Source: a virus. From it: a stretch of 39,209 nucleotides of DNA. This document shows positions 1 to 39,209 of this stretch, in pieces. Location: IMG/VR virus record IMGVR_UViG_3300040801_004080, positions 1 to 39,209 of that record; one strand, written 5' to 3'. How positions within the stretch are numbered: the first letter of the stretch is position 1; the number at the start of each line of letters is the position of its first letter. A model generated the notes under the pieces. That model was given only the letters and a program-made list of their open reading frames with translations. It was not told the DNA's origin and searched no databases. The position numbers and the translations under genes were made by a program.

Positions 1-87
1 ATGGATCAAAGAAATCAGAGAGAAAAACGGCCTATGGGAACTCACCCTAAACCTACCGGTTCGCCTACCGAACCAAGATGGTGACCC
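1..87 (+). repeat. Left copy of 87-bp att-region direct repeat
   Basis: Positions 1-87 are identical to 39018-39104. The two copies diverge immediately afterwards: here the sequence continues into phage DNA, on the right into tRNA-Glu. Most of the repeat is integrase coding sequence; only its last 9 bases (79-87) match the 3' end of the tRNA. A simple attL should have host DNA to the left of the core, so this copy looks like an attP junction from a circular or tandem phage, or an assembly overlap. The true left limit of the repeat is outside the window. Confidence 0.9.
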
Positions 88-166
88 AGTTTGGAGTAAG
101 ACGAACCGGTTTTTGTTGATGCGGCGGGAAGGGTTGGTTGTTTATGCGATGGCGCGGGCGGCTTAG
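2..166 (+). pseudogene. 3' fragment of serine integrase gene, phage-form C-terminus
   Basis: In the same frame as the integrase at the right end, this fragment reads through the 87-bp repeat and continues openly for 26 more codons, from codon 86-88 to a TAG at 164-166. It therefore gives the C-terminal tail the integrase would have when the phage ends are joined, a predicted 519-residue protein. The stop overlaps by two bases the stop of the convergent lipase gene (TTA at 163-165). In the window it is only a fragment, because the upstream part is at the other end. Confidence 0.75.
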
Positions 167-987
167 TCCGTCCATTTGAGGGCGGCGGGTTTCAGGCTGT
201 CGAGCGATGCAACGACTGCGCGGTGATATTGGCGGATGGAGTGATCGTGGATTGATACCGCTTTGCCAAGCCGGAAGCCTCGAAATGAGATGTGTCCGGC
301 GGTGGTGCGGCCGATGCGCTGCAGTTGCTGAAAGAATGGGTTCATGCCGGGTTTGATTGCGCCGCGCAGGGTGATGACGGATACGCCGGGTTCCGGGTGG
401 CGGTATCCCATTGTCCAGGGCGGAAGGCAGGGAACGAGGTCGGCTTTGTTGCGCAGCTGGATCAGGCGGCCGTCCATGGCGTTGCGGATTTGCTCCGCAA
501 AGTCGGCATCCCCGGGGCGCGGGGCGCCTGCCACAACCACGAGGTCGGGCAGGATGCCTTTTTCGCGGCAGATGAGTTCGAGCAGGTAGGTGCAGGCTCC
601 GCCAAGTGAGTGCCCGCATAGGATTAGCGGACGCGGTCGGCGGCTGTATTCTTCGGCGATGGCGGCAACGAGCGGCCGGCGGATTAAGCCAAAGTGCGCC
701 CCAAAGCCGGAGCTGACTTTTCCTTTGCCGATGTATGATCGCTTTTTAAAGGTGAGGTTGTTTTTCCAGTCCTTGTAATCGTTGGTGCCCGCGATGCAGG
801 CGATGATTACATTGTCGGCGGTGAAGAGCGCCGCGCGGGCGTTGCTGTTGGTTATGATTTTTGGCGACAGGCGGCGGTCTGCGCAGAAGTCAGCAAAGCC
901 GGGTCCCTCTTCGTGGAGATAGACCGCTGTGCAGCAGGCTAGTGCCAGCTCAGTCTGTTTGGCTTTTTTCCGTCGCTGGTTTTTCAT
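163..987 (-). CDS. Class 3 lipase / alpha-beta hydrolase, possible lysis esterase
   Basis: This 274-residue protein has the features of lipase class 3. It has the nucleophile elbow GHSLG (Ser127), a following AGAPRPGDADF segment typical of the family, a candidate Asp183 in NKADLVPCLPP, and a late DHS with His249, so the catalytic triad looks complete. There is no obvious signal peptide. The ATG follows AGGGG and overlaps the end of the upstream membrane-protein gene by 38 bases. It is the last gene of the leftward transcript, behind small TM and lipoprotein genes that look like lysis genes. I infer a role in breaking the outer membrane or lipids at lysis; a lysogenic-conversion lipase is the alternative. 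No muramidase was recognised nearby. Confidence 0.8.
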   Translation of the reverse strand: MKNQRRKKAKQTELALACCTAVYLHEEGPGFADFCADRRLSPKIITNSNARAALFTADNVIIACIAGTNDYKDWKNNLTFKKRSYIGKGKVSSGFGAHFGLIRRPLVAAIAEEYSRRPRPLILCGHSLGGACTYLLELICREKGILPDLVVVAGAPRPGDADFAEQIRNAMDGRLIQLRNKADLVPCLPPWTMGYRHPEPGVSVITLRGAIKPGMNPFFQQLQRIGRTTAGHISFRGFRLGKAVSIHDHSIRQYHRAVVASLDSLKPAALKWTD

Positions 988-36378: not shown

Positions 36379-36648
36379 ATGAGTTCAAAAAAAACAGAGA
36401 TGGTGCACATCCGGCTGACATCCGAAGAAAAAGCCGATCTCACACAACTCGCAGAAGAAAAGATGACCGACGTATCCACAATGATGCGCAAAATGGCCGC
36501 CATGCTGTGCCAGGCAAGCCGCCAACACGGAACCCGCCTCATCTGGCCCCCTCAATTCAACTACTACCCGGCCACAGAAAGCCGTCAAGAGCTTCTACTC
36601 GTCGCCGAAGAGCCAGAAGAGTACCCAGCTAAAAAACATGCAGGATAA
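36379..36648 (+). CDS. Ribbon-helix-helix protein, candidate lysogeny repressor
   Basis: This 89-residue protein starts MSSKKTEMVHIRLTSEEKAD, with an RHH-type ribbon and helices (LTQLAEEKMTDVSTMMRKMA). The acidic C-terminus (VAEEPEEYPAKKHAG) is an extension. GGGGGGAG is before the ATG. It is the first gene of the rightward unit, divergent from the early promoter, the position of a repressor. Confidence 0.75.
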   Translation: MSSKKTEMVHIRLTSEEKADLTQLAEEKMTDVSTMMRKMAAMLCQASRQHGTRLIWPPQFNYYPATESRQELLLVAEEPEEYPAKKHAG

Positions 36649-36652
36649 TCCA

Positions 36653-37105
36653 ATGGCCTTTAACCCCGAAATTATAGTTCCTCTGGTTGTGTTCTATTTC
36701 TTCGCGGTTGGCGTGGTCACAACAATCCGCTACATCAACAGCATTCCCGACCGCATCAGAGCGAAATTTAAAAAAAAGCAGCCAATCACAGCCAGCGACA
36801 TAGAGCCGCGTAAAATGCCCGCCAGAGCAAAGCGACCGAGGTCATACGATGAGTCTGCAATTCAGGTGAAAAGCCGGGTCCTCATGATCAACTACACCGA
36901 TGGAGATGGAGAAACCACCATTCGCAAAATCAAAACCGCCAGCTATAAACCAAAGGCTAAATTGCTGTTCGCTCATTGTCATCTCGCTGGGGAACAACGC
37001 ACTTTCCGAATCGATCGCATCAACACAGCAACCGCAGCAGGTGGGAAGTTCATTCCAGACATGATGAACTATCTATCCAGCATCCACAGAGGAACAACAC
37101 TATGA
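36653..37105 (+). CDS. Membrane-anchored WYL-like protein
   Basis: An N-terminal TM segment (residues about 6-24, IIVPLVVFYFFAVGVVTTI) is followed by a basic linker and, at about residues 75-130, a WYL-like beta unit: RVLMINYTDGDGETTIRKIK, then KLLFAHCHLAGEQRTFRIDR. WYL domains bind ligands such as nucleic acids and regulate defence and repair. A membrane form is unusual. Its stop overlaps the next start. Confidence 0.65.
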   Translation: MAFNPEIIVPLVVFYFFAVGVVTTIRYINSIPDRIRAKFKKKQPITASDIEPRKMPARAKRPRSYDESAIQVKSRVLMINYTDGDGETTIRKIKTASYKPKAKLLFAHCHLAGEQRTFRIDRINTATAAGGKFIPDMMNYLSSIHRGTTL

Positions 37106-37602
37106 AAAAAATCATTCTGTCGATAATCATTCTGCCGATTCTTCTCCTCACCGGATGCGCAAACATCAACCTGACCGACGAGCAAGTTGATAACTTCGAT
37201 TGGGTGCAGCAAGCCAACGCCTTCAATATTGCTATCGATTACCACAACCTCCGCACCCGAGGTGCTCCTCATCGGCTAATCACTATTGAAAGCTTTGCCT
37301 GGTCATATGCTGATATCGACCCGCGTGTTCTCACCTATTATGAAAAAGCCCTCGTTATCAAAGGGCTTGACCCTGAGCATGTTCAACTCATCCGCAAAGG
37401 TGAAATCTGTGTTGGCATGCGTGAATTCGGCATGTACGCAGCATGGGGCCGCCCGCGCGAGAACAACACCCACCAGTCAGCATATGGAAAATCTATCCAG
37501 CATATCTATGGATCAATCACCGCATCAAAATACTCATCGCTGGCGCGAAAATATGTCTACACCAAAAACGGAATTATCACCTCATTCAGCGTAAAAGAAT
37601 AG
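37102..37602 (+). CDS. BamE/OmlA-like lipoprotein, candidate conversion protein
   Basis: A lipoprotein signal (MKKIILSIIILPILLLTGCA, Cys at about 19) precedes a mostly helical part. The last 60 residues look like an SmpA/OmlA/BamE fold: GMREFGMYAAWGRPRENNTH, then QHIYGS and YVYTKNGIITSF. Co-expressed with the lysogeny genes, it may alter the cell surface, for example to exclude further infection. The signal peptide is partly encoded by a word repeat. Confidence 0.7.
   Translation: MKKIILSIIILPILLLTGCANINLTDEQVDNFDWVQQANAFNIAIDYHNLRTRGAPHRLITIESFAWSYADIDPRVLTYYEKALVIKGLDPEHVQLIRKGEICVGMREFGMYAAWGRPRENNTHQSAYGKSIQHIYGSITASKYSSLARKYVYTKNGIITSFSVKE
37110..37134. repeat. AATCATTCTGTCGATAATCATTCTG word in signal-peptide codons
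   Basis: Nearly identical to 31556-31581; here it encodes the hydrophobic IILSIIIL core of the lipoprotein signal. Confidence 0.65.
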
Positions 37603-37623: not shown

Positions 37624-39159
37624 ATGAAAAAATACCTCATCTACACCCGAGTCTCTCCAAAAGGCAGCGCATGGACCGGCGGCGAAACCACCGTCGTCGA
37701 CCAGGCCACCCAATGCCGCGCCTACGTCCTCGCCACAGATCCCGACGGAACCATCGTCGGAACCATCGAAGACGAATTCGAAAGCGGCGGTTCGTCCAAG
37801 CGCCCCGGCTGGCTCAAAATCATTGAAGACGTAAAACACGGCACCGCAGAATGGGATATCCTTGTCGTCCGCCACCTCGACCGCTTCAGCCGATCGATCT
37901 CCGACGCCGTCAACGCCCTCGAACTCTTCCACAAAAACGGCAAACACCTCATCGCCACCGCCCAGGGCCTCAACAGCTCCACGCCATCGGGTAGGGGAGT
38001 CATCAACATCCTCCTCTCCATCGCCCAAATGGAACGAGAATTCACCGCCGAACGCGTCCGCATGAAAATGATGTCCATCGCCGCCAAAGGCGAATGGCCC
38101 GCCGGCACCGTCCCCTACGGATACCAACGCGGAGAGAAGAAAGACAACATCCTCCACCTTCACCCCGAAAACGCCGACCGCGTCCACCAGATCTTTCTCC
38201 GCTACAAAAACGGAACCGGCCCTCGCCAGCTTGCCCGCGACTATGGACTCTCCACAAACACCATTTACTACATCCTCAAAAACCGCATTTACTTGGGAGT
38301 CCTCGCCTACGGCGGATCAGAATTCCCCGGCAAACACAAAGCCATCATCGACAAAAAACTCTTCGACGACGTCCAGAACATCCTTGTCCCAGCAACCAGC
38401 AACCAGCAACCAGCAACCAAAAAAAGCCGTCCAAGGCCGAGAGCCCAAAAATACCCCTACCTCTTCACCGGACTCATCACCTGCCACTGTGGCCGCGCCA
38501 TGACCCCCGCATCGGCCCACGGACGTAAAAAGCGCTACCACTACTACCTATGCACCGACCGCGAACGCTGCAAACACCGCATCAGCGCCCCGGAAATCGA
38601 AGCGGAAATCCTCGACACCATGCGCACCATCAAACTCAGCAAAAAAGAAATCGACACCATCTGCGAAACCATCCGCAAAACCGTCGCCCGCCGATCCAAA
38701 GAACTCCCCAAAGCCGAAAGCCTCAACAACGCCCTTGCTCTAGCCAAACAGAAAAAAGAACGCCTCACCCGCATGTTCATCGACGGCCTCATCACCCCCG
38801 ACAACGCCGACCTCATGAACAACGAACTATCCAGCGCCACAAAAGAAGTTTCCACCCTCACCGGCCAGCTCGCCGCCATAAAAGCGGCAACCCAAACCAG
38901 CCCGGAGTTAATTGAAGAAATGTGCAACTTTGCCCGCAGCCTCACCGACCTCGAAAAAATCATCGACACCGCAAGGGAAAAAGAAAACACCGACACCCTC
39001 GCCCACATCTGCCGGACATGGATCAAAGAAATCAGAGAGAAAAACGGCCTATGGGAACTCACCCTAAACCTACCGGTTCGCCTACCGAACCAAGATGGTG
39101 ACCCCAACGGGAATCGAACCCGTGTTGCCAGGATGAAAACCTGGAGTCCTAACCGCTGA
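37624..39159 (+). CDS. int: Large serine recombinase (phage integrase), chimeric C-terminus
   Basis: The 511-residue protein has the resolvase catalytic domain (YTRVS, Ser11; HLDRFSR with Arg87 and Arg90), a recombinase domain from about residue 160 (GTVPYGYQRGEKKDN), a zinc ribbon (about 284-318, ITCHCGRAM and YLCTDRERCKHR) and a long coiled coil (about 335-420). A CAGCAACC word repeat gives NQQPAT between the two DNA-binding domains. The last 18 residues (PNGNRTRVARMKTWSPNR) are coded by the antisense strand of tRNA-Glu. In the joined phage form the frame would instead continue as at 86-166. Confidence 0.93.
   Translation: MKKYLIYTRVSPKGSAWTGGETTVVDQATQCRAYVLATDPDGTIVGTIEDEFESGGSSKRPGWLKIIEDVKHGTAEWDILVVRHLDRFSRSISDAVNALELFHKNGKHLIATAQGLNSSTPSGRGVINILLSIAQMEREFTAERVRMKMMSIAAKGEWPAGTVPYGYQRGEKKDNILHLHPENADRVHQIFLRYKNGTGPRQLARDYGLSTNTIYYILKNRIYLGVLAYGGSEFPGKHKAIIDKKLFDDVQNILVPATSNQQPATKKSRPRPRAQKYPYLFTGLITCHCGRAMTPASAHGRKKRYHYYLCTDRERCKHRISAPEIEAEILDTMRTIKLSKKEIDTICETIRKTVARRSKELPKAESLNNALALAKQKKERLTRMFIDGLITPDNADLMNNELSSATKEVSTLTGQLAAIKAATQTSPELIEEMCNFARSLTDLEKIIDTAREKENTDTLAHICRTWIKEIREKNGLWELTLNLPVRLPNQDGDPNGNRTRVARMKTWSPNR
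38390..38419 (+). repeat. Word-like repeat, CAGCAAC units inside integrase
   Basis: Four 7-base CAGCAAC units in tandem, in frame, coding ATSNQQPAT in the linker between the recombinase domain and zinc ribbon. Confidence 0.85.
39018..39104 (+). repeat. Right copy of 87-bp att-region repeat (attR)
   Basis: Identical to 1-87. Holds the last integrase codons and the last 9 bases of tRNA-Glu (39096-39104). The strand-exchange point should be within the bases shared with the tRNA or immediately beside them. Confidence 0.9.
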
Positions 39160-39170
39160 ACGATGGGGCC
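39096..39170 (-). tRNA. tRNA-Glu (anticodon UUC), integration target
   Basis: The minus strand reads GGCCCCATCGTTCAGCGGTT at its 5' end. It has the anticodon loop TTTTCAT (anticodon TTC) between CCAGG and CCTGG, the T-loop GTTCGATTC, and an encoded CCA end. The acceptor stem GGCCCCA/TGGGGTC pairs fully with one G-T. The phage sits at its 3' end. Confidence 0.95.
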
Positions 39171-39209
39171 ATCGCCAAAAGCGAGCGAGCAAGATAGCAA
39201 ACTCGTGAA
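39171..39209. other. Host flank
   Basis: Short sequence past the 5' end of tRNA-Glu. It is presumably bacterial chromosome and contains the tRNA promoter region, but is too short to say more. Confidence 0.5.

Follow-up and report, generated by a model that had tools for sequence, protein, structure and literature searches.

Phage Mx8 of Myxococcus integrates at tRNA genes, and integration of SSV-type archaeal elements cuts their tyrosine integrase into two pieces. In Mx8, which has the two integrase forms Int and IntX (Tojo 1996, Magrini 1999, reviewed in PMC6070905), attP lies inside the coding sequence of int, and host sequence replaces the 3' end of the gene upon integration, as in the locus described here. 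The mycobacteriophages BPs and Brujita likewise resemble this locus in that attP is located in a coding gene, the target is a tRNA gene and a C-terminal part of the encoded protein is lost, the part lost in BPs being an ssrA-like tag (PMC4557955, PMC9262239). A further likeness is to the SSV-type integrases, which extend across attP (PMC4383910), with the integrase gene spanning attP in a tRNA gene. The placement of attP within int is thus already known from Mx8; the variant described here is that of a serine integrase, a class of enzymes in which the control of direction is central both for phage biology and for genome tools.

The window, that is, the entire stretch of DNA that we analyzed, is a virus record of 39,209 bases from IMG/VR, and the last gene on its plus strand is int (Table 1). 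A domain search of the int product detected Resolvase, Recombinase and zinc-ribbon domains (PF00239 with a match of 8e-28, along with PF07508 and PF13408), identifying an integrase of the serine type, not the tyrosine type; the Arg-Val-Ser nucleophile motif (R9, V10, S11) is invariant across nine relatives. The 3' end of int contains one copy of an exact 87-bp repeat. As the original prediction had it, the int frame crosses this repeat into the antisense strand of a tRNA-Glu gene, yielding a prophage form of 511 amino acids, and when position 39104 is joined to position 88, the same frame remains open to a TAG codon, yielding a phage form of 519 amino acids. The two forms have 494 residues in common and then diverge, with 17 residues (NGNRTRVARMKTWSPNR) in the prophage form and 25 residues (VWSKTNRFLLMRREGLVVYAMARAA) in the phage form; the tails themselves had been predicted correctly, and the 18 and 26 codons ascribed to them include the stop codons. 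The swap of tails is forced because attP sits within int. Thus, attP within int and a 3' end that is swapped on integration, the defining arrangement of Mx8, are both found in the window.

Table 1 Features of the integrase gene, the attachment site and their surroundings in the window
Feature	Position	Strand	Remark
int, attR (prophage) form, large serine integrase, 511 aa	37624..39159	+	TGA within antisense tRNA-Glu
Right copy of the 87-bp repeat	39018..39104	+	Last int codons, P half of attP, core
Left copy of the 87-bp repeat	1..87	+	attP (circular form) when joined to 88 onward
P arm ACCGGTTCG	39072..39080 (left copy 55-63)	+	
Core TGGTGACCC	39096..39104 (left copy 79-87)	+	Common to attP and the 3' end of tRNA-Glu
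P' arm CGAACCGGT	102..110	+	Inverted partner of the P arm
Prophage-form tail codons (NGNRTRVARMKTWSPNR)	39105..39159	+	Read from antisense tRNA-Glu
Phage-form tail codons (VWSKTNRFLLMRREGLVVYAMARAA) and TAG stop	88..166	+	TAG of the 519-aa form at 164-166
Convergent phage gene with GHSLGG lipase-like motif	163..987	-	Stop overlaps TAG of the 519-aa form (TTAG)
Host tRNA-Glu (TTC)	39096..39170	-	attB target, intact in attR
Host flank	39171..39209		Similar to Kiritimatiellaeota NIOZ-UU71 beside its tRNA-Glu

Two small genes (36638-37105 and 37099-37602) precede int on the plus strand, the late genes being mostly on the minus strand. They encode a membrane protein with one helix, which weakly matches phrog_6785, and a lipoprotein-like protein (LLTGCAN), and could be expressed in the prophage or be the home of a directionality factor. 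No excision factor is recognizable in the window, an observation that carries little weight because the directionality factors of serine integrases share little homology among themselves (PMC5814800).

The joined sequence forms a symmetric site: a 9-bp exact inverted repeat, ACCGGTTCG...CGAACCGGT, is centered in the 9-bp core TGGTGACCC, with the dyad center between positions 39099 and 39100 (82 and 83 in the left copy; TGGT/GACCC), a core that would presumably contain the crossover point. Short, with inverted arms around a core, this site fits the attP of large serine integrases. In an arm-run test, alternative right halves drawn from the window gave an equal 9-bp arm in only 10 of 12,867 cases, and shuffled right halves did so in 41 of 20,000; the host-joined sequence (attR) alone lacks the 9-bp dyad. 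A score for the palindromic character of the whole site was also tried as a test for attP and rejected, since, unlike the arm-run test, it did not separate attP from shuffles. The symmetry of attP and the same arrangement in a circular relative, L056, make the joined junction look real. The left end of the record starts exactly at the 87-bp repeat, presumably because a de Bruijn assembler encountered one path through the circular form (attP) and another through the integrated form (attR), and we infer that the contig is a mixed-state assembly, not a single molecule. The start of the contig at the first base of the repeat and its mixture of two junctions could also reflect misjoining of the left 87 bp, in which case an attP of this form would not exist; we consider this extremely improbable, given that the junction yields a symmetric attP, with a P' arm that agrees in sequence and spacing with the one in the circular L056. 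A tandem prophage or a plain assembly error was disfavored as the main reading for the symmetry of the junction and the circularity of L056.

The right end of the window is host DNA, because the tRNA-Glu gene and the 39 bases that follow it match genomes of Kiritimatiellaeota/Pontiellaceae. Two contigs of one metagenome-assembled genome (L005 and L007) overlap and end at the same tRNA-Glu and perhaps represent the junction of another element.

We searched for relatives of the integrase in 346 genomes of the host class, 388 genomes of the phylum and IMG/VR. In the tree, 20 of the 21 int genes of one serine-integrase clade (support 100/100) cross the attachment site, such that the two forms with distinct tails originally predicted for the window recur clade-wide, including in a circular free-phage genome. 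The distant integrases L034 and L036 represent a second origin of the crossing; no close relatives of L034 were found in viral contigs. In nearly all prophage relatives, the int frame terminates within a tRNA or tmRNA gene read in antisense, with stop codons in antisense tRNA-Asn (L012, L081), tRNA-Glu (L013), tRNA-Gln (L078, L058, L083), tRNA-Leu (L080), tRNA-Ala (L082, L085, L087) and tRNA-Arg (L084); the int gene of L063 ends in antisense tRNA-Asn-like sequence, where the record stops, that of L086 ends at a tmRNA gene, and the target of L079 is not a tRNA. Among the outgroup serine integrases, no int gene ending in an antisense tRNA was found. The P half-site, GTTCGNCTA-N11-TGG, is kept in the clade at constant spacing and provides a sequence rule by which the attachment sites of these elements, which target tRNA and tmRNA genes, can be located exactly. 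Short protein ends of the kind exemplified by 'SNQRPSG' are explained as tRNA antisense.

Several of the relatives show features of their own. In L036, the tRNA-Asn is rebuilt at attR with two mismatches in the acceptor stem, because the phage provides the 3' strand; in L034, the stem is perfect. About 41.6 kb from int, G355 contig 11 (L109-L111) contains the 3' end of int a second time, in degraded form, together with the P arm and a flank that is similar; this copy may be what remains of an earlier element that used a target of the same type. The serine-integrase element of L086, of about 35 kb, lies at the 3' end of the tmRNA gene (G450 contig 7, near 56660).

The phage form of the gene can be read directly in L056, the genome of which is circular, as indicated by a 99-bp exact terminal overlap. 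Its integrase, 63% identical to that of the window, comprises 523 amino acids and reads through CCGGTTCGTCTAA...TGGC/GACCC...TTAGACGAACC; symmetric sites are also read through by the int genes of L055, L072 and L076. For prophages, the other end had to be located. A search for attL by shared 11-mers was fruitless because the core is too short, and scans of 12 genomes with a generic P' motif yielded no attL that could be used. Element-specific scoring of the core and P' arm located the other end of L086 (35,058 bp), L087 (33,263 bp) and L079 (39,819 bp), with a weaker candidate for L085 left unused. Together with a probable attL of L012 on a separate contig, which is less certain because, by our estimate, a match that good is expected by chance about 0.4-0.7 times in that genome, these ends allowed the phage-form tails of L012, L079, L086 and L087 to be rebuilt. 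Counted from the core onward, the rebuilt L012 tail and the L056 tail are equally long. Next to the probable L012 attL, where the window has the lipase-like gene, there is a caspase-like gene (L209, 2067-2840, minus strand).

The int frame is open across attP in all nine phage forms, read or rebuilt, compared with 4 of 18 alternative frames, so that, judging from these sequences, the read-through looks selected, the nine cases being not fully independent. Among the three closest integrases, conservation of the protein extends as far as LNLP, immediately ahead of the P arm; beyond this point, it is the DNA that is conserved (GTTCGNCTA-N11-TGG), with the window frame one base off that of L012 and L056. 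Compared with shuffled tails, the likeness between the L056 and L012 tails is significant (p = 0.00075), that between the window and L056 is less clear (p = 0.017), and that between the window and L012 is not significant (p = 0.17). The phage tails of the window subclade end in VVYAMARAA, TVFGVAA, QIFANVA and ILRVA, and the tmRNA tags of hosts have YALAA or FALAA at their ends; an AA or VA end is found in 13 of 344 background ORFs. Such ssrA-like ends (ARAA, GVAA, NVA) are missing in the other subclades, and a universal degron across the clade was accordingly rejected; the phage tail of the window subclade may be a degron of the ssrA type.

The alignable solved structures of serine integrases (matches to 4KIS, 9IU2 and 9DXH) end near residues 488-495 of L056, before the swapped part. 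The swapped part is therefore an extension beyond the canonical fold, which the prophage form retains whole. AlphaFold models of the L056 and window integrases show long helices (coiled coil), and the L056 tail is modeled as two strands (508-512 and 516-522). The phage tail is thus a predicted beta-hairpin, with modest confidence, from seven sequences and a model of L056 rather than of the 519-aa form of the window. The prophage tail of the window (502-511) has pLDDT <50, that is, predicted disorder.

On the reading that we favor, with confidence that is roughly even, the location of attP in int lets a phage tail tune the enzyme of the free phage, and integration strips this tuning. In the circular phage, int would cross the P arm, the core and the P' arm and end in the phage-encoded extension; recombination with the 3' end of tRNA-Glu would remove this extension and put the antisense-tRNA residues in its place. 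The common residues would hold the entire canonical catalytic, recombinase and zinc/coiled-coil fold, so that both forms are predicted to bind DNA and to catalyze recombination. The final strand of the zinc domain would carry the tail, the most likely role of which is to tune the enzyme in its phage state through activity, subunit contacts or lifetime; integration would abolish the tuning. The swap would then serve as a built-in report of the integration state and is probably not the main determinant of direction. A bolder version, in which the C-terminal extension of the clade is a sensor of the integration state, with a structured tail that sets the free enzyme and a tRNA-antisense rewrite that acts as protein-level memory biasing direction or lifetime, appears doubtful.

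The wide variation of the tails between subclades and the constraint that the att motif itself imposes on much of the tail count against tuning, and the former fits a passive by-product, whereby enzyme and site are inherited as a unit, the sequence of the tail simply follows from the att DNA and the two forms are functionally equal. The end of protein conservation at LNLP, the maintenance of the P arm as DNA in two frames and the completeness of the canonical fold without the tail point the same way. Nevertheless, a by-product would not be expected to keep the int frame open across attP in every phage form or to produce tails as similar, and as equal in length after the core, as those of L056 and L012; overall, we regard this possibility as real, if on the improbable side. 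The original prediction proposed a possible direction switch, in which the phage form would prefer attP x attB and the prophage form would be less active or dependent on a partner; behavior of this kind is described for Int and IntX of Mx8. Serine integrases are already directed by site-dependent conformation together with a directionality factor, and Mx8 Int is a different, tyrosine-type enzyme; such a switch, although a fair hypothesis, is unlikely in our view. In its favor, the anatomy in Mx8 is alike, with attP in int and a new 3' end accompanied by altered specificity upon integration (PMC6070905), and the tail is attached beside the part of the protein that, in phiC31, makes contact with the directionality factor (PMC5814800).

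Two other explanations concern the lifetime of the protein and the RNA. In the window subclade, an ssrA-like phage tail could shorten the life of the free integrase until integration strips the tag, as with the BPs repressor. The resemblance of the tail ends to the host tmRNA tags, the rarity of AA or VA ends in the background and the presence of such tags on both the repressor and the integrase of BPs speak for this scenario, which we nonetheless find quite unlikely: the L079, L086, L087, L072 and L076 tails lack such ends, the three closest cases are homologous rather than independent, and the residues in question lie in a predicted strand. Alternatively, the tails could be irrelevant, with the tRNA promoter facing the 3' end of int in the prophage and antisense transcription damping int; the tRNA's own downstream region would be displaced by about 39 kb in the prophage. 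Indeed, tRNA-Glu is antisense to int and overlaps it in attR, and the orientation is alike in nearly all prophage relatives, yet damping of this kind leaves the open frame of the phage form unexplained, and we consider it very unlikely. The many lineages of the clade supply natural matched pairs of enzymes that differ only in a short tail, which makes the role of the C-terminus directly testable.

In the literature that we searched, we came across no account of a serine integrase gene that itself harbors attP, which falls short of proving that none exists. Compared with the known systems, the locus differs from Mx8, the Int of which matches Phage_int_M and phrog_1, that is, the tyrosine-type family, in that the window enzyme is of the serine type, uses an attP with a canonical dyad, comes from another phylum and belongs to a clade that the trait marks as a whole. 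BPs and Brujita carry attP in the repressor gene and have an integrase of the tyrosine type, whereas here attP is in int, and an ssrA-like tag is suggested for one subclade only; unlike in the SSV-type elements, the core enzyme stays whole. With the serine integrases of A118/LI, Bxb1, phiC31 and SPbeta (YokA), the window enzyme shares the resolvase, recombinase and zinc-ribbon/coiled-coil domains, but the solved chains of those enzymes stop near the point of entry into attP, and the attP-encoded extension of the window enzyme lies beyond it.
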